A model generated the notes under the pieces. It made no database searches, was not told where the DNA came from, and was given only the letters and a program-made list of their open reading frames with translations. DNA of 64,000 nucleotides from Ignavibacteriota bacterium (GTDB taxonomy: Bacteria > Bacteroidota > Ignavibacteria > UBA10030): positions 214,402 through 278,401 of the forward strand of contig PMZI01000023.1 of the NCBI GenBank assembly GCA_003170475.1, given 5' to 3'. Both the position numbers and the translations under genes were made by a program. This document shows, piece after piece, positions 14,037-23,391 of this stretch (positions within the stretch are counted from its first letter, which is position 1; each line of letters opens with the position of its first letter).

Positions 14037-14154
14037 GCTGTTGTGTTACCAGACAGGATCGGATGGAGCTGCCCGTGCGGCCTCTCCGCGTCAAGACAGC
14101 ACTACCATCCCCCCTTCTCCTCGACTCTCTCAGATCCTACTGTATGAGGATACT

Positions 14155-16908
14155 ATGAAAAGGTACTTGTGTCTTCTCCTTCTTGCGTCCCAAGTAGTAT
14201 TGGCAGGAACAACGGGAAAAATTGCCGGAAGGGTCATCGACGCTGCAACAAAGCAGCCGCTTCCCATGGTGAACATCCAGATTTCGGGAACAACCTACGG
14301 AGCCGCAACGGATGTCGATGGAAACTACTTCATCATCAACGTACCGGTCGGCACATATTCCCTGCGCGCGTCGATTATCGGCTATGCGCCGAGGAGCACG
14401 TCGAACGTCAAGGTGATGCTGGACATGACGACGACGATCGACTTCGCGCTTCAGTCTGCGGACGTCGAGATGAATGAGGTGGTTGTCGTAGCAACCCGGC
14501 CCCCCATTCAGGCCGACCTGACGTCGACAAAGCATATCATTGAATCCGACGCGATCAACGCTCTGCCCGTTGACGACTTTCGCGAGGTGGTGTTTATGCA
14601 GGCCGGCGTGAACGGAAGCCATTTCCGCGGCGGCCGATTCAATGAAGCGCTCTTTCTGGTCGACGGGATGGCGGTGAAAAGCGCCATCAACAGCTACAGC
14701 GGAACAACGACCGCGGGATTTTCAACGAACCTCCCCGAGTTCAGCGTATCAGAAATTCAGGTGACGACAGGAGGATTCGAAGCAGAGTACGGTAATGCGC
14801 AGTCGGGCATTGTGAACACGATTACGCGTGACCAGACCCGGTTCGGCGCAAAGTTTCGTGTTCGCACCTCAGATTTTCCCTGGTCGAAGATGCAATGGAC
14901 TCCCTACACATATGGCACCGGTCAGCCGGACTGGAAGGACTACGAGGCATATGTCAGCGCTCCGTCCGTGGCCATGGCGGGCATCAATTTCTTCCTGAAC
15001 GGATCGGCAAACATTGCGCTGCAGAACCGCGATTTTCTGCCCCACGAGGACTTCTATTCTCAATCATATCAGGCAAAACTGAGAGCGGTCACCCAGAATA
15101 CCCGCGTGACGTTGAGCGGACTCTATTCCTGGGACAGAACGAACTCCTATTATCACTCATCCTCGAAGTACGGTCCATTGAGCGAAGGATACGAGACGAA
15201 CCTGTTCCAGCAAGTCGCCACCGTCAACGGAGTGAAGACACTGCAGCAATACATCTTTGTGTCGGATCCGCAGAACTACCACAATGCGAAAAAGCCTGAC
15301 TCTGCGCTCTATGCTGGTGACGGCTTGTGGTATAAGAGCGTACAAAATATCTATCAGGCGGGAATGCAGCAACACATCTCTCTGCCGATTAATAAAAGTT
15401 ACAATATCGGTTTGTCTGTCAATCAGACCATCAACAACCAATCGTTCATCGACATCAAGATCTCGCAGTTCTGGACAAACTTCCGGGAGATCGTGCGCGA
15501 CGTGGACGATCGGAACCTCGATGGCAGCACCTCAGACGAACTGCACTGGCAGTTGAACGGCAGCACCGGCGGGTACCTGAGCCATCTCAGCACAGGCGGC
15601 TATTGGTACTATACCGGCGATGAAGGCTGGTATCTGAACCAGATCTCGCGTACAACGAATCTGCGAGCCGACTATTCGAACCAACTCAACTCCTCGAATT
15701 TGTTGAAGACGGGCATCGAAGCAGATTATATCAAGGGTGATGTGGAGAAGGTGACATTTGAATCGCCATCCAATCCCCGCTTTGATCTCTGGAACCAGGA
15801 CCTTGTTGATTTTGCCGTCTACGCGCAGGACAAGATTGAAGTTCGCGATGGATTCATCGTCAACGCCGGCATTCGATTCGATTACTACAATCCCAACGGG
15901 CTTACGGGTGATGTGCTCTATCCCGGCGATCCCACAACCCTGCCGCAGCACAAAGATGGCACGGGTTTGACGTCGGCTGACATGGTGCCGGCGCGATGGC
16001 AGATCAGTCCGCGTATCGGTATTTCGCATCCGATTACCGAGCGGGACAAGATCCACTTCTACTACGGTCACTTCTTCCAGCGTCCGGATCTGCGGTTCTT
16101 GTATGAAAACATTGCGCTGAACTTCCGTTATACCACGAACGTTGATGTCGGCAATCCGCGGCTTCTCCCGGAGAAAACTGTTTCCTACGAACTCGGATGG
16201 GATCATCTGTTCTCGGATTTCCTGCGGATGAATACCACGCTCTACTTTAAAGACATCACGAACCTCATCGGTGCGACGGATTACGTCATCACGGGATCTC
16301 CGGATTCGTATCAGGCGTACACGAACATGGATTACGCGAATGTGCGCGGCCTCGAGATGACACTGGAGACCATGGGCACCCGGGGTATCGGCGGGAGCGT
16401 GAATGTGAGCTATGCGTTTGCGAACGGAAGATCGTCTTCCGTCTTCCGTTCCAACGGCGAGATTGTGCCGCGTCGCCTCGATCCACTCGACTGGGATGTA
16501 CGGTGGAGAATTAATGCGAACCTGTTATTCACATCGACAGGTGCAATTCACGACTTGATTGGCGATGCCGAGGTGGCCTTTGTGTTTGTTGCGCACTCGG
16601 GCTATCCGTATTCGTCGAATACACGTGACGCCTTCCCGTTGTTCGTTCTCCGGAACGATGCGCGCTTGCCGTGGGCGAGCAACGTTGATATGCGGGCGCG
16701 AAAAACGTTTCTCGTCGCCAATCTCGAGTTTTCGGCGCTGGCGGAGGTGAAAAACCTGTTCAACTCGCATAATGTGTCGTACATCTCCGGCGGACGTGAC
16801 GGCCTCGTCGAATATGAAGCCACGGGTAATCCGACCGGTCCCTATAACGATCCCCAAGCCTATAGTCCTCCCCGTGTGTACCGCCTCGGGTTGCAGGTCC
16901 AATTTTAA
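14155..16908 (+). CDS. TonB-dependent receptor with carboxypeptidase-regulatory domain (module 1)
   Basis: A 917-residue outer-membrane receptor. After a signal peptide (about 1-19) comes a CarboxypepD_reg-like beta-sandwich at about 20-105 (GKIAGRVIDAATKQPLPMVNIQ, GTTYGAATDVDGNYFIINVPVG). The plug is at about 120-235 (VDDFREVVFMQAGV, LFLVDGMAVKS, ISEIQVTTGGFEAEYGNAQSGIVNTIT). The long barrel has many aromatic-rich strands and ends in LGLQVQF with the terminal Phe used by the BAM machinery. The ATG at 14155 follows TGAGGA; upstream in-frame sequence does not look coding. It is the first of three tightly spaced genes with a large secreted protein and a PorV/PorQ protein, the same order as at 26.7-33.4 kb. 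The ligand is unknown. Confidence 0.93.
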   Translation: MKRYLCLLLLASQVVLAGTTGKIAGRVIDAATKQPLPMVNIQISGTTYGAATDVDGNYFIINVPVGTYSLRASIIGYAPRSTSNVKVMLDMTTTIDFALQSADVEMNEVVVVATRPPIQADLTSTKHIIESDAINALPVDDFREVVFMQAGVNGSHFRGGRFNEALFLVDGMAVKSAINSYSGTTTAGFSTNLPEFSVSEIQVTTGGFEAEYGNAQSGIVNTITRDQTRFGAKFRVRTSDFPWSKMQWTPYTYGTGQPDWKDYEAYVSAPSVAMAGINFFLNGSANIALQNRDFLPHEDFYSQSYQAKLRAVTQNTRVTLSGLYSWDRTNSYYHSSSKYGPLSEGYETNLFQQVATVNGVKTLQQYIFVSDPQNYHNAKKPDSALYAGDGLWYKSVQNIYQAGMQQHISLPINKSYNIGLSVNQTINNQSFIDIKISQFWTNFREIVRDVDDRNLDGSTSDELHWQLNGSTGGYLSHLSTGGYWYYTGDEGWYLNQISRTTNLRADYSNQLNSSNLLKTGIEADYIKGDVEKVTFESPSNPRFDLWNQDLVDFAVYAQDKIEVRDGFIVNAGIRFDYYNPNGLTGDVLYPGDPTTLPQHKDGTGLTSADMVPARWQISPRIGISHPITERDKIHFYYGHFFQRPDLRFLYENIALNFRYTTNVDVGNPRLLPEKTVSYELGWDHLFSDFLRMNTTLYFKDITNLIGATDYVITGSPDSYQAYTNMDYANVRGLEMTLETMGTRGIGGSVNVSYAFANGRSSSVFRSNGEIVPRRLDPLDWDVRWRINANLLFTSTGAIHDLIGDAEVAFVFVAHSGYPYSSNTRDAFPLFVLRNDARLPWASNVDMRARKTFLVANLEFSALAEVKNLFNSHNVSYISGGRDGLVEYEATGNPTGPYNDPQAYSPPRVYRLGLQVQF

Positions 16909-16917
16909 GGTGACGCC

Positions 16918-18861
16918 ATGAAGAAAACAATCATACGCATCTCACTCTTGAGCATTCTCTTCATCGCGGTGACATGGGCCCAGGATGGTCCCAAGCCCCG
17001 AGAGAAAATGTTGATGAAAACATCCTCCATCAACGCCGTGAATCCGATGGGCTTCAGTCACAAGATGGGAAGGTTGTGGACCCAGATCACAAACTACGGA
17101 TTTTACGGTGACCGTAATTACGAAGAGCCGAATTTCGAGTGGCCCGGGGGCAGCGGCAATATCTACGGGTGGCTCACCTCCATTTGGATTGGCGGTATTC
17201 TTGATTCCCTGGGCTACATGTCCTCCGGGGAGAACAACCACTTCCGTCCTCTTGATTCCATCTATGTGAAACATGCCGCCGAAGGATCGCTTTCAGCGGA
17301 AGACACATACACGAGATACACGGATGTCGATCCGGCCAGCCCGTCGGGAGTTCACGTTAACCTTGGTGTTGAGGTCACCGAACGGACGTACGTCTGGGAT
17401 CAGTCGTACAATGAAGACTTTATCATTTGCGACTACTGGATCAAGTATGTGGCATTTGACCGAAATAAGAACGGCGTCATTGATGATGCCGAGAAAAAAC
17501 TCACCGGTGTCTATGTCGGCTTCCGCATGGATGCCGATGTGTCCGGGTTCATCGGTACCAGCACCCCATCAACATTGTGGGACACCGATGACCTCGCGGG
17601 ATATGATTCGACGAACAAACTTACGTTCATTTACGATTCGGACAGTCCAAGCGTTGCGGGAGATGACACCGGTAATCCGGATCCTGTGACAGGGATTCTC
17701 AGATCGCCCGGGTATATCGGCGCACGGTTGTTGTATGCCGATAGTGCCCATTTCGTCGGCAAGTACACCGGTAAGCCAACGATGGCAACGCCGTCGTACA
17801 GGAATTTTGAGCCACTGACTGCGCAAGCTCAATATGAATTTGTCGCCGCGGGCACGATCACGTCGAACATAACCGTCATCCGAGATTACCGGGCCATCTT
17901 GGGCATCGGGCCGTACACCATCAATGGAGGGGATTCGATTCACATCGTGGTCGCGTGGGTTATTGGTCCTGGCCGCCAAGGAATCATCAAGAATTCACAG
18001 GTCGCGCAGTCCATGTTTGACGGCAACTATCAGAGAGCCCCATCCGCGCCCGATGTGCCAACGTTCACGATAACACCGACGACATCCAGCAGCGTGCCGG
18101 CTCTGGCTATTCGCTGGAAGCGCAATGCAGAGTCGAGCCGCGATCCACTGACTGGTGCACAGGATTTCGCGGGCTATGGAATCTATCGAACATCACGCCA
18201 GGACGCCGGCGGTAACGCCATCTGGGATACGTTGGGGATCTATGTGAAGAACAATGCGGTGGATAAAGTGAAGGACTCACTGTGGTATGGACGTCCTTTC
18301 CTGAAGTCCTGGCCGCCACCCACGGTTGTGCAGGGGACGGATACACTCTATCAGCTGATCGACCCGAACACACCGAATGGACTCATCTACACGTATGCAG
18401 TCACTGCTTTTGATTCTGGCGATTCCACCTTGGGGATCGGAAGACTTGAGAATCAAATCGGCCGGGGCAAACTGTCCACGAAAGTCTTTATGCCGAACGC
18501 TCCTGCGACGGCGAGCACCTCAAACATCCGCGTGGTGCCAAACCCCTTCATGGGTTCAAGCCGATTCAATAATCCGAACCCGGTGGATACGAATCCGTGG
18601 GTGAACCGATTGCGTTTCATTAACCTGCCGCCCAATGCGAAGATCTCGATCTTTACACTCGCCGGAGACCTCATCAAAACCATCAACAGCGGTGACGTGG
18701 TGTACCAAAGCCGCGACGTAAAGATCACCGGAGATTTTACGGGCGTTGCAGAGTGGGACCTTACCACCAGGAACAACCAGGAAACCGTGAGCGGTCTCTA
18801 TATCTATGTCGTGGAGTCTTCCGCCGGAACCTTCACGGGTAAATTTGTCATCATGCGCTAG
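16918..18861 (+). CDS. large secreted protein with fibronectin-like region and FlgD/T9SS-type C-terminus (module 1)
   Basis: A 647-residue exported protein of unknown function. Its signal peptide ends near residue 21 (VTWAQ). The middle contains acidic, calcium-site-like stretches (DRNKNGVIDDAEKK) and a fibronectin-like segment around 385-420 (IRWKRNAESSRDPLTGAQDFAGYGIYRTS). The C-terminal 110 residues (NIRVVPNPFMGSS, LPPNAKISIFTLAGDLIKTI, SGLYIYVVESSAGTFTGKFVIMR) look like the FlgD-Ig/T9SS C-terminal domain. The protein at 29775 has the same layout, including a matching DFAGYxIY segment. It starts 9 bases after the TonB receptor gene, with AAGGTG before the ATG. By analogy it may be a surface protein working with the receptor; this is inference. 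Confidence 0.85.
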   Translation: MKKTIIRISLLSILFIAVTWAQDGPKPREKMLMKTSSINAVNPMGFSHKMGRLWTQITNYGFYGDRNYEEPNFEWPGGSGNIYGWLTSIWIGGILDSLGYMSSGENNHFRPLDSIYVKHAAEGSLSAEDTYTRYTDVDPASPSGVHVNLGVEVTERTYVWDQSYNEDFIICDYWIKYVAFDRNKNGVIDDAEKKLTGVYVGFRMDADVSGFIGTSTPSTLWDTDDLAGYDSTNKLTFIYDSDSPSVAGDDTGNPDPVTGILRSPGYIGARLLYADSAHFVGKYTGKPTMATPSYRNFEPLTAQAQYEFVAAGTITSNITVIRDYRAILGIGPYTINGGDSIHIVVAWVIGPGRQGIIKNSQVAQSMFDGNYQRAPSAPDVPTFTITPTTSSSVPALAIRWKRNAESSRDPLTGAQDFAGYGIYRTSRQDAGGNAIWDTLGIYVKNNAVDKVKDSLWYGRPFLKSWPPPTVVQGTDTLYQLIDPNTPNGLIYTYAVTAFDSGDSTLGIGRLENQIGRGKLSTKVFMPNAPATASTSNIRVVPNPFMGSSRFNNPNPVDTNPWVNRLRFINLPPNAKISIFTLAGDLIKTINSGDVVYQSRDVKITGDFTGVAEWDLTTRNNQETVSGLYIYVVESSAGTFTGKFVIMR

Positions 18862-18870
18862 AGGTGCCCC

Positions 18871-19830
18871 ATGAAAAAAATCATTCTGCTTCTGCTTGTT
18901 GCTGTCCCTCTTGCTGCTCAGCAGTTTGGGCAGGTTGGCACCAGCGGTGCGCAGCTCCTCAAGATCAACTTTGATCCGCGTGCCTCCGGGTTGGGGAACG
19001 CCGCGTCATCCATTGTGAACAATGCTGCGGCGGTGTACACCAATGTCGCTGGACTCGAGGGTGTTCAAAATGGGGAAATTGCGTTCACCTATGCTCCGTG
19101 GTTTGCCGGTATCGATATGGTCTCCATCGTCGGAGCGTATCGGCTCGAAAATATCGGGGTGATCGGCCTGCAGGCGACAGGATTCAGTACGCATGAGGAA
19201 ATCACAACGATCGAAATGGAAAATGGGACGGGCCAAACCTACACCATTCAGAACGTCATCCTTGGCCTCTCCTTTGCCCGGCACATTACAGAGAAACTCG
19301 TGATCGGAGCACAAGCAAAGTATATCCGTGAATCATATTTTGATCATTCGACGTCAGGGCTTGCCTTTGATCTCGGCAGCAACTATGATCTCGGCTTTTC
19401 GGGAGCACGCCTGGCGATGACGCTGCAGAACTTCGGACCCGACCTTGATCCCCTTTCGGGCAATTACAATGATTACAGCGACGGCAACAACCAAAAGGGA
19501 TTTCTGCGGACGCCGCTGCCCGTGACGTTCCGGGCGTCATTCTCGCTCGAGCCGGTGGTCGCGGAAGCATATCGCGTCCGGGTCATTGCGGATCTCATCC
19601 ATCCCAATGACAATGTCGAGCACTACTGTCTTGGGAGCGAGGTGCTTCTGTATAATTTCATCGCCATTCGTGGGGGTTTAAAATTGAACTACGATGACGA
19701 AAAATTTGCCTTCGGCATAGGACTCAAAGGTTCACAATTCCTTGGTCAGGACGTCCGGTTCGACTATTCGTATGAGCAGTTCAAAACACTCCCCTCAATC
19801 CAGAAACTCTCCCTCGGAATCGGTTTCTAG
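18871..19830 (+). CDS. PorV/PorQ-family outer-membrane protein (module 1)
   Basis: A 319-residue beta-barrel protein of the PorV/PorQ (UPF0164-like) family, FadL-related barrels that include the T9SS shuttle PorV. The signal peptide ends at about residue 17 (LAAQQ). The family opening follows: QLLKINFDPRASGLGNAASSIVNNAAAVYTNVAGLEGVQNGEIAFTY is the hallmark stretch with its early Asn and Ala-Gly residues. Later strands include VGAYRLENIGVIG, KLVIGAQAKYIRE and FDLGSNYDLG. The protein ends in Phe. Its gene starts 9 bases after the secreted-protein gene, within the same transcription unit closed by the terminator at 19879. It may help dock the adjacent T9SS-type substrate; whether it is the general PorV cannot be told here. 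Confidence 0.92.
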   Translation: MKKIILLLLVAVPLAAQQFGQVGTSGAQLLKINFDPRASGLGNAASSIVNNAAAVYTNVAGLEGVQNGEIAFTYAPWFAGIDMVSIVGAYRLENIGVIGLQATGFSTHEEITTIEMENGTGQTYTIQNVILGLSFARHITEKLVIGAQAKYIRESYFDHSTSGLAFDLGSNYDLGFSGARLAMTLQNFGPDLDPLSGNYNDYSDGNNQKGFLRTPLPVTFRASFSLEPVVAEAYRVRVIADLIHPNDNVEHYCLGSEVLLYNFIAIRGGLKLNYDDEKFAFGIGLKGSQFLGQDVRFDYSYEQFKTLPSIQKLSLGIGF

Positions 19831-19878: not shown

Positions 19879-19913
19879 AAAACCCGATGGTGCAGACAGC
19901 CATCGGGTTTTTT
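19879..19913 (+). terminator. intrinsic terminator of TonB/PorV module 1
   Basis: AAAACCCGATGG pairs with CCATCGGGTTTT around loop TGCAGACAG and runs straight into six T residues. It lies 49 bases after the PorV/PorQ stop codon and just before the M19 dipeptidase gene. Confidence 0.92.
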
Positions 19914-19931
19914 AACATCATTGAAGGATCC

Positions 19932-21587
19932 ATGAGCAAGAGCATTATCATCGTTATCACCGTCGTCGTCATGTTCCAGTCGCTCCGGGCGGACGGTCCC
20001 ACACTTCTTGGAACCGTGCGCGACCGGCATACCGGTAAGGTTGTGTCTTTGGCGACGGTTCAGATCGTTGACCGGCGCGGGGTGCAGCTTGGGATTACCT
20101 CGTCGAACTCTCTGGGTCAATGGCGATTTACGATACCACTGACGGGAGTAAACGAAGCGGATGTCCCCCGGACGTTTTCCATCGATCAAAACTACCCCAA
20201 CCCTTTCAATCCATCGACGAAGATTCCGTTTTCGGTGGGACACGAAGGCACCGTGCGCATCAGTGTGCACAACGTTCTCGGACAACAGCTTGATGCCCGG
20301 GAGTTTTTGCTGAAGCCCGGAAGCTATACCGTCGATTGGAATTCCAAGGGAAGCGCCGGGGTTCTCTTCTATTCCATAGAGATGGACAACATCCGCTTCA
20401 CAAGAAAAATGGTTCAGCTTGACGGCGGCAATAAGAACGGGCTGGGGAACATCCTGCAGATGACACGAGCTTCGCTCTCACGCGTGTCAGCAGAAGTGCT
20501 GGCTGATTCCTGTCTGGTCATTACGTCGTCTCTCGTATACGAGACAGATACAACCACCGTCGCCCTGGTCGACTCCGCCACTGTGAACATCCTTCTGGAC
20601 AGCATCCATGATCGAGCGTTTGTGATCGATCTTCACAATGATTTGATGGAAATGATCTCGGGGGGCGGTTTCAAGTACCAATTGGCCGATCGTCACACAC
20701 CCCCGAATGGCCAGACGGACATTCCCCGGCTTCGCGATGGTGGTGTGGATGCCCAGATCTTCGCGATATGGATCAGCCCAACAACGTACGCGTCATCAAC
20801 GTGGTTCTCAACGTCGGTACGGTTCCTCGATACCTTGAAGGCGCAAGTCGGGCGGAACTCCGCAGACATTGGGTTGGTGACCCGAGCAGATTCTGTCGAT
20901 GCTCTCAACCAGCGGAAAAAGATTGCCGGAATCGTTGTGGTTGAAGGAGGGCATTCCATTGAAGACAAAATTGAAAACCTCAAATTCTTCTACAATGCCG
21001 GCGTCAGGGTCATGACGATCACATGGAACAACAGTACCTCGTGGGCTGTTTCCGCACAAGACGAATCTCAGAAGGGGATCAAGACCGGCCTGAACGAATT
21101 CGGCAAACAGGTGGTGAGAACAATGGACTCTCTGGGGATGATTATTGATGTTTCCCACGTTGGCCCATCAACGGTTGACTCCATCCTGGCAACATCGAAG
21201 AATCCGATCATTGCGTCACACTCTGGAGCTTACGCGCTCCGAAGCCATTACCGCAATCTGACGGACGCTCAAATTCGTGCAATTGCTGCACGCGGCGGCG
21301 TTATAGGGGTGGTCTTCTATCCTACGTTTCTTGTGTCATCGGGTACCGCGAGGCTGTCGGACGTGGTTCGGCATATCGACTATATCAAGAACCTTGTCGG
21401 CGTTGACTATGTCGCATACGGATCTGATTTTGATGGGATGGACGGGGACTCTCCGGTGGGACTCGAAGATGTTTCACATTTTCCCGCACTCACCGAGGCA
21501 TTGCTTCAAAAGGGATACACCAGACAGGAAGTTCGGAAGATCCTTGGGGAAAACTTCATGCGGGTCTTCCGAACAGTCTGCAAGTAG
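19932..21587 (+). CDS. membrane dipeptidase (family M19) preceded by an internal T9SS-type sorting domain
   Basis: A 551-residue exported protein with an unusual domain order. After the signal peptide (about 1-20) come a short carboxypeptidase-regulatory-like unit (GTVRDRHTGKVVSLATVQI) and then a type A T9SS domain at about 75-160 (FSIDQNYPNPFNPSTKI, VHNVLGQQL, LFYSIEMDNIRFTRKMVQL). A full M19 renal-dipeptidase domain follows at about 230-550. M19 landmarks are the metal motif VIDLHNDLMEM, the Glu in VVVEGGHSIED, the His in ASHSGAYAL, RGGVIGVVFYP, and YGSDFDGMDG with the closing GENFMRVFR. M19 enzymes hydrolyse dipeptides with two zinc ions. The ATG follows GAAGGA; the frame upstream overlaps the terminator and is not coding. 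The C-terminus lacks a sorting domain of its own. Confidence 0.9.
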   Translation: MSKSIIIVITVVVMFQSLRADGPTLLGTVRDRHTGKVVSLATVQIVDRRGVQLGITSSNSLGQWRFTIPLTGVNEADVPRTFSIDQNYPNPFNPSTKIPFSVGHEGTVRISVHNVLGQQLDAREFLLKPGSYTVDWNSKGSAGVLFYSIEMDNIRFTRKMVQLDGGNKNGLGNILQMTRASLSRVSAEVLADSCLVITSSLVYETDTTTVALVDSATVNILLDSIHDRAFVIDLHNDLMEMISGGGFKYQLADRHTPPNGQTDIPRLRDGGVDAQIFAIWISPTTYASSTWFSTSVRFLDTLKAQVGRNSADIGLVTRADSVDALNQRKKIAGIVVVEGGHSIEDKIENLKFFYNAGVRVMTITWNNSTSWAVSAQDESQKGIKTGLNEFGKQVVRTMDSLGMIIDVSHVGPSTVDSILATSKNPIIASHSGAYALRSHYRNLTDAQIRAIAARGGVIGVVFYPTFLVSSGTARLSDVVRHIDYIKNLVGVDYVAYGSDFDGMDGDSPVGLEDVSHFPALTEALLQKGYTRQEVRKILGENFMRVFRTVCK

Positions 21588-21669: not shown

Positions 21670-23391
21670 CTAGCGACGCCCGCTCTTTCCGAGAGAAATC
21701 GTGATTCCCCAACCCTCAGGGTCATCAGGCGGTGTGTCGTTCCAGTCGTCATAGGCATGCGTGCCGTCCGTTTCGTAGAAGACGGTGTACCGGCCGGCGG
21801 GCAACGTAATCGTTCCTTCAAAGAGTCTGTTCTTCTCTGCTCCACCGGCATGTTCGGTCTTTCGGTACTTCATTTCCCACATCGTCTTCCCCGTGTTGGA
21901 ATCTTCAATCCATCCGTAGTCGAACATCTCGCCGCCGCGCCCTTCACCGACAGCATAGATGTGAACGTCGCCTTCCCGGGAAAGAGAGAATTCTTTCCGC
22001 CGCCGCTCATCATTCCCGACGCGCACGATGCTCGCCAGTGCGGAAGGATTTTCCCGATCCTCATATGCGCCCACATCCTTTGGATCGAACTGCTCACCGG
22101 AAGCCGCGATCGTGATCCCCCAACGCTCGGGCTCGTAGGGAGGGGCAGAGTTCCAATTATGGTATGAATGCGAACCGTCGGTAACGAAGTGCACAATGTA
22201 GCTGCCCCGGTCCAGACGAACGATCTGATCAACCATGCGATTCTTCTTGTCTCCTCCGGCATAGCCCGTTTCATTATAGCGCATGGTCCAGACCTTCTTG
22301 CGTGAGGAAGCGTCCACAATCCAGCCGTAATCATCCATCTCGCCATCACGTCCCTCGCCGACAGCATGAATATGCACATCCATCGCTTTTTTCAAAGTGA
22401 AGGATTTTGATCGAGACTCGTCGTCGCGCATGCGAGTGAGGTCAACGATAATATTTTTCTCATCAATGGGCTTGTATTCATAGATCTTTGCAAATTTCTT
22501 CATGGATTCGTCCTTGACCCACACGGTCACCCCCCAGAAAGATGGATCGTAGGGGGGAGGGGCGTTCCACTCTTTATAAGAGTGTGAATCGTCAGTGACG
22601 AAGAATGCTGCATACTGTCCGGCGGGCAAGGAAATGGTTTCACGGGTGTATCTGTTCTTGCTTGCGCCGCCCGCGTATTGGGTTCCAGTCTCGGTCATTT
22701 CCCAGACCCGAGCCCCGGTTTTCGTATTTACAATCCAACCATAGTCGTAGAGGACATCATCGCGACCCTCACCGATGGCGTACACAACCACGTCAGCGGG
22801 TTTTTCGAGTATGAATCCCTGGTGTTGATATTCGTGATCCCAGAGGGCCGAAAGAGAGAGAACCGCGTTCTTTTTGAGATCCAGCTGCCATCGGTCGACC
22901 CCCTCCTTTCCGACGTGCTGCCCGCGCCCATGAATCGTGAACTCCAAATCACGGTATTCGCGTGTGTGCCGGCCACCACTGAAAATCTTTCCCGCAATGA
23001 AATCCATGAGCTCCCCAAAACTCTCGATCCCATCAGTCGGCTCAGGATATGCGGCGTAGTATGCTTCGTACGATCCCTTGGGGAGCGGAATCACTTCTTC
23101 GTAGTCTGCGAGACCCCGGCTGCGCGTGCGTCGCGGAGATTGTTTCAATTTCCAAACCACCTCGCGGGAATCCTTGTCCAGAATCCACAAGGCTGTCCCC
23201 ACTCCCCGGAATCGATCGCTTGCCGCGACCGCGTTGATGGTAACATCCTGTTTGGCATCGAGCGCAAAACCGTCGCTCTTGACCTCATAGGAACCGACGT
23301 TGCGAATGTCTGTGAGGAGATCTTGCTGGGCGTGCGAGACGGAGAGACACAAAAGGAACAGACACGAGAAAGTGAAAGCGATACGTTTCAT
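21670..23391 (-). CDS. secreted repeat protein of unknown function
   Basis: A 573-residue protein with a signal peptide (about 1-21, ending SHAQQ) and tandem units of about 100-120 residues. Three are clear (roughly 190-295, 320-420, 450-565), with a diverged one nearer the N-terminus. Each clear unit has DVxIYAVGEGR, a DYGWI segment, Wx-M followed by TxxAGGxxKNR, a LPxGxYxxxFxTDxSHSY stretch and WNxxPPxxPxxWGxTI. I do not recognise this family. Conserved Asp, Gly and Trp suggest beta-sandwich units, perhaps carbohydrate- or calcium-binding. There is no T9SS C-terminal domain and no catalytic motif. It may follow or be co-transcribed with the TonB receptor gene 163 bases upstream. A nested palindrome lies just before the start. 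Confidence 0.85.
   Translation of the reverse strand: MKRIAFTFSCLFLLCLSVSHAQQDLLTDIRNVGSYEVKSDGFALDAKQDVTINAVAASDRFRGVGTALWILDKDSREVVWKLKQSPRRTRSRGLADYEEVIPLPKGSYEAYYAAYPEPTDGIESFGELMDFIAGKIFSGGRHTREYRDLEFTIHGRGQHVGKEGVDRWQLDLKKNAVLSLSALWDHEYQHQGFILEKPADVVVYAIGEGRDDVLYDYGWIVNTKTGARVWEMTETGTQYAGGASKNRYTRETISLPAGQYAAFFVTDDSHSYKEWNAPPPYDPSFWGVTVWVKDESMKKFAKIYEYKPIDEKNIIVDLTRMRDDESRSKSFTLKKAMDVHIHAVGEGRDGEMDDYGWIVDASSRKKVWTMRYNETGYAGGDKKNRMVDQIVRLDRGSYIVHFVTDGSHSYHNWNSAPPYEPERWGITIAASGEQFDPKDVGAYEDRENPSALASIVRVGNDERRRKEFSLSREGDVHIYAVGEGRGGEMFDYGWIEDSNTGKTMWEMKYRKTEHAGGAEKNRLFEGTITLPAGRYTVFYETDGTHAYDDWNDTPPDDPEGWGITISLGKSGRR

Follow-up and report, generated by a model that had tools for sequence, protein, structure and literature searches.

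In the 64,000-nucleotide stretch of Ignavibacteriota DNA analysed here (the window), a dipeptidase gene encodes a T9SS type A (T9SS-A) sorting domain in an internal position, followed by a linker and a complete M19 peptidase domain. T9SS signals are described as C-terminal. The architecture is real, conserved and little described, and it brings known parts into a new arrangement. A preliminary description of this DNA had recognised the order of the two domains but overlooked the nesting: the T9SS domain sits within a second domain and not merely ahead of M19. Judged from its sequence, the N-terminal region is probably a nested pair of beta-sandwich domains, with the T9SS-A fold occupying a loop of a CarboxypepD_reg domain. 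The features concerned are as follows.

19879..19911, + strand: terminator-like hairpin and U-run, between the PorV-family gene and the dipeptidase gene
19932..21587, + strand: whole dipeptidase gene, open frame, 551 aa
19932..19991, + strand: predicted signal peptide, residues 1-20, MSKSIIIVITVVVMFQSLRA (from the sequence; Sec type judged by eye)
19992..20144, + strand: first half of CarboxypepD_reg (transthyretin-like), residues 21-71 (PF13620 profile 1-45 of 82)
20166..20423, + strand: embedded T9SS type A sorting domain (Ig-like), residues 79-164 (TIGR04183; 30/30 orthologs; tree)
20406..20408, + strand: Lys159 in the last strand, invariant in 30/30 embedded domains and aligned with the lysine of PDB 8glj_D
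20421..20423, + strand: Asp164, at the site of the canonical terminal Lys/Arg (comparison with 96 canonical domains)
20424..20495, + strand: Gly-rich linker, residues 165-188 (sequence, alignment)
20496..20603, + strand: second half of CarboxypepD_reg, residues 189-224 (splice test in relatives)
20607..21572, + strand: peptidase M19 (membrane dipeptidase) domain, residues 226-547 (Pfam; alignment with DPEP1)

The frame runs uninterrupted through 551 codons and a stop, and ortholog N-termini begin with a comparable hydrophobic stretch. The start at 19932 is preferred over a longer one at ATG 19887 because the latter falls within a strong hairpin and U-run (fold -20.3 kcal/mol, z -5.8 against shuffles). 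This terminator-like hairpin just upstream suggests that the dipeptidase gene is transcribed as a unit of its own; a terminator consensus scan did not pick it up. At 14041-19830 the window holds a row of three genes, for a TonB-dependent receptor, a T9SS-type protein devoid of Pfam matches and a PorV/PorQ-family protein (NF033709, 146.8 bits), the last lying upstream of the dipeptidase. The row is kept beside the dipeptidase gene only within family f1 of the class and was set aside as an indication of function; the PorV-like protein may be a partner specialised for the protein encoded next to it. On the minus strand at 21670-23391 lies a gene for a 573-aa protein with three repeat copies, spaced 411 and 414 in the DNA. 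It has no Pfam or NCBIfam match, and an ortholog occupies the same place in genome G029.

Residues 88-161 match the NCBIfam model of the T9SS type A sorting domain (TIGR04183) at 27.3 bits, above the cut-off of 23, and the same domain reaches 20.5 bits with Pfam Por_Secre_tail (PF18962), under its cut-off of 27. The domain ends at residue 164 of 551 and is followed by a linker of about 62 residues and then by M19. That such a domain normally forms the extreme C-terminus, as had been stated beforehand, is borne out by the host genome: among its T9SS-A domains (E < 1e-8), 96 of 98 end at most 14 residues before the stop, most of them at most three, and two are internal, the distance to the stop being measured in the DNA that surrounds each match of the query in this genome. 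The host has a T9SS (SprA, TIGR04189, 1102.8 bits), and about 96 proteins with a C-terminal T9SS-A domain in 4.1 Mb represent a heavy T9SS load.

The closest matches of the window's embedded domain are T9SS-A domains of its own genome, and the fold motifs, including NYPNPFNP and the Gly motifs, are invariant in 30/30 embedded domains. The one conserved surface residue of the C-terminal domain (CTD) is a lysine near the C-terminus, which contacts PorV (PMC10994853). The lysine of 8glj_D, with which Lys159 aligns, belongs to a type A CTD whose structure was solved within the T9SS translocon; this PorV-contact position is lysine in 100% of the embedded domains, against 68% lysine and 19% arginine in the host's canonical ones. 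The end of the domain is altered: where 98% of the 96 canonical domains have Lys or Arg as last residue, 27/30 embedded ones have Asp, and Gly comes next in 25/30. Two residues ahead of this position Leu has become Gln in 28/30, and other clade-wide changes include Asp for Ala and Lys/Arg for Leu.

The peptidase domain is complete: Pfam PF01244 covers residues 226-547 (E 9.9e-97, 324 bits, profile 3-318 of 319). All metal and active-site positions are present (H235, D237, E338, H409, H430, R441 and D499), align with residues of human DPEP1 and are conserved among the orthologs; we take the corresponding DPEP1 metal ligands and active-site residues to be H20, D22, E125, H198, H219, R230 and D288. 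By analogy with its family, the protein is predicted to be a Sec-exported M19 dipeptidase that cuts dipeptides in the periplasm or at the surface.

The evidence for nesting begins with Pfam CarboxypepD_reg (PF13620), which matches the window protein weakly, at residues 24-68, and with the first half of the profile only. This would be explained if the T9SS domain interrupts CarboxypepD_reg. When the T9SS domain was spliced out in five relatives, PF13620 scored 31.7-41.9 bits and the match extended up to profile position 74-82 of 82; four of the five exceeded the curated cut-off of 32.3. Controls in which the second half was reversed, in the same relatives, gave 18.6-26.9 bits and stopped at position 40-51. 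For each splice, the segment preceding the T9SS domain was joined to the one directly ahead of M19; the junctions were set by eye and did not differ between test and control. Among 16 orthologs spliced more loosely, CarboxypepD_reg was recognised in 15. In the spliced window protein the match ended at profile position 47-49, within the first half, so the second half there rests on homology with the relatives. AlphaFold models of the whole protein and of the cassette, built on shallow alignments, were acceptable for the first half and the T9SS domain and poor for the second half and much of M19; they place second-half strands at 195-198, 209-213 and 217-222 with low confidence, pLDDT being mostly around or below 50. 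A Foldseek search with the cassette returned weak Ig-like matches, none of them significant, including the NucA signal in the translocon (8glk_D, E 0.02), and a profile of the spliced domain found nothing convincing among PDB sequences.

Orthologs were sought with a profile of the linker and M19 in 294 genomes of the class Ignavibacteria. The matches fell into separate score groups: the 30 full places scored 444-642 bits and a single fragment 403, four more places reached 353-388, and the remainder stayed at or below 298. All 30 orthologs share the same order of signal peptide, half CarboxypepD_reg, T9SS-A domain, linker and M19, with 59-65 residues between the T9SS domain and M19. They are spread over eight families (f1, f2, f3, f13, f14, f16, f24 and f27), and some lie on single-contig genomes, e.g. 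G145 and G190. The embedded domain is 67-83% identical within the genus, less conserved than two canonical CTDs of neighbouring genes (85-93%). Its dN/dS is 0.10-0.13 within the genus and 0.16 against G018, with dN similar to that of M19, although, with dS close to saturation in several of the comparisons, these ratios are rough. Purifying selection acts on the embedded domain.

These data bear on the concern, raised at the outset, of a hidden stop or frameshift between the domains, and also on a misjoin of two genes. The host assembly is a draft of 85 contigs and the layout is rare in the genome (2/98), which would fit such an artefact. However, 29 of the 30 orthologs that repeat the layout are stop-free within the match, one (G038) having a single stop near its end, some stand on single contigs, and selection acts on either side of the junction. 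We regard the probability of an artefact as negligible and reject sequencing error or misjoin; the shared layout of the 30 orthologs excludes a stop or frameshift hidden between the domains. The preliminary description was thus right to place an internal T9SS-A domain (TIGR04183 at 88-161) ahead of a linker and a complete M19 domain (226-547), and its suggestion of gene fusion or re-use of the fold agrees with the domain order found in all 30 orthologs among the 294 class genomes.

In a tree of M19 domains the cassette-bearing ones form one clade (support 99), and the embedded T9SS domains likewise form one clade when compared with 96 canonical ones (support 92, from few columns). The fusion is therefore old and probably single, and the simplest history would be a single acquisition by an ancestor common to part of the class. 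The nearest M19 relatives (family f10; L251-L254) have an N-terminal hydrophobic membrane anchor and are devoid of a T9SS domain, and therefore the enzyme had no ancestral need of the T9SS. A phylum-wide motif search, with a motif that would miss variants and a few locus-less hits left uncounted, yielded no T9SS-A domain at any of the 27 loci read outside the class. Most motif matches in f41 belong to one unrelated conserved gene.

The second internal T9SS-A domain of the host genome belongs to a 645-aa GH30 enzyme (G000:C69:57668-59602; L134:9668-11602), where it stands ahead of the glycoside hydrolase within a similar N-terminus with a split CarboxypepD_reg frame. Its spliced flanks score 30.1 bits with PF13620 against 22.0 for the control, which gives partial support, and its insert scores 49.7 bits with FlgD_ig. 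In another genus and class family, L214:1453-3669 (G150:C4) encodes a signal peptide, a short N-terminal domain, an internal T9SS-A domain ending KKMVKLDGG and a GH20 hexosaminidase, while L215:2205-4478 (G216:C30) encodes a long protein with an internal T9SS-A domain near its N-terminus, ending KKMILLDGG. The flanks of the GH20 and L215 inserts gave no CarboxypepD_reg match better than controls. The GH30 and GH20 inserts fall outside the M19 insert group, which L215 joins weakly; internal placement therefore probably arose more than once.

It had also been proposed that the usual sorting mechanism should not work in this protein, a claim that is unproven since His-tag extensions of CTDs are tolerated (PMC11285876) and the PorV-contact lysine is kept in all embedded domains. 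C-terminal His tags on PorU, PorZ and PPAD did not block T9SS function or export, whereas replacement of the last CTD residues did; furthermore, some T9SS proteins keep their CTD, and those of PorU, PorZ and PorA are uncleaved (PMC11285876). A folded part of about 390 residues downstream is, however, a far bigger change than a tag. We give about even chances to the reading that the M19 protein is a Sec-exported dipeptidase whose insert was domesticated as an Ig-like module, having ceased to act as a terminal T9SS signal. The dipeptidase would leave the cytoplasm by Sec, and the insert, no longer cut by PorU, would serve as a structural or binding module that sets the catalytic domain on the outer-membrane or cell-surface side. 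Working in the periplasm or at the surface, M19 would then hydrolyse dipeptides that stem from peptidoglycan turnover or from external protein. The exchange of the terminal Lys/Arg for Asp (27/30) with Gly next to it (25/30), and the clade-wide changes elsewhere, would favour domestication, as would the membrane-anchored sister M19 proteins that do without a T9SS domain; the invariant lysine, NYPNPFNP and Gly motifs would rather fit a retained T9SS role.

That retained role could be a working internal signal, a lesser but serious possibility, in which the embedded domain, after Sec export, would dock in the SprA pore against PorV while its flanks stay periplasmic, the whole protein then being moved to the surface uncleaved by PorU, as for the CTDs of PorU, PorZ and PorA. 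The motifs and lysine invariant in 30/30 argue for it, together with the tolerated tags and retained CTDs (PMC11285876) and the recurrence of internal domains ahead of enzymes expected to work extracellularly (GH30, GH20). The altered end (Asp for the basic residue in 27/30, Gln for Leu two before it in 28/30) argues against it, and the open-access literature searched yielded no cargo whose CTD is followed by a large folded domain. SprA occurs in 34/34 genomes tested, including every holder of the architecture, but this co-occurrence does not discriminate because all holders have SprA and no SprA-negative holder was found. Domestication is somewhat more likely than a working internal signal. 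Only slightly less probable than such a signal is the more general proposition that the T9SS exports proteins by an internal, nested type A domain with the catalytic domain after the signal, an uncleaved N-terminal-tag route that evolved more than once (M19, GH30, GH20). Unlikely is an insert that shares only ancestry with T9SS signals and was selected, for binding and not for positioning, as an adhesive Ig-like module with peptidoglycan, glycans or a partner protein as its ligand. The Ig domains of T9SS-A and FlgD are alike, the A5 profile matches FlgD structures, the GH30 insert resembles FlgD_ig, and the residues peculiar to the clade (Asp for Ala, Lys/Arg for Leu) might form a new surface; against this, the ligand is only putative and the window's insert is nearest to the T9SS-A domains of its own genome.

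An internal domain with a fixed lysine and an altered end residue separates the fold, the lysine and the free end as requirements of the translocon, and the family thus offers a natural test of whether a T9SS tag must be terminal to work. A TIGR04183 match alone leads to the annotation 'T9SS type A sorting domain-containing protein', and tallies of T9SS cargo that rely on the model also count proteins built differently. The open-access literature searched, which misses most subscription papers, yielded no account of T9SS-A domains in an internal position.

Compared with known systems, the protein resembles peptidase family M19 (membrane or renal dipeptidase; DPEP1 and bacterial dipeptidases) in its complete domain with every metal and active-site residue, and differs in the nested N-terminal cassette, where its nearest relatives have only an N-terminal anchor. 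Its frame shares with CarboxypepD_reg both halves in order, giving a near-full profile once joined in relatives, but is split by an 85-residue insertion located behind the strand that comes next after the conserved G-x-W/F. The insert belongs to the sequence family of T9SS type A sorting domains (TIGR04183/PF18962), with the motifs NYPNPFNPST, LG, G-x-Y-x-V-x-W, GVxFY and KM, a score above the NCBIfam cut-off and the conserved lysine; unlike these domains, it is internal, about 390 residues from the C-terminus and nested in another domain, and its terminal Lys/Arg is now Asp-Gly. As in the uncleaved CTDs of PorU, PorZ and PorA (PMC11285876), a T9SS-A-like fold would stay on the mature protein, but those domains are C-terminal and carried by proven T9SS cargo.
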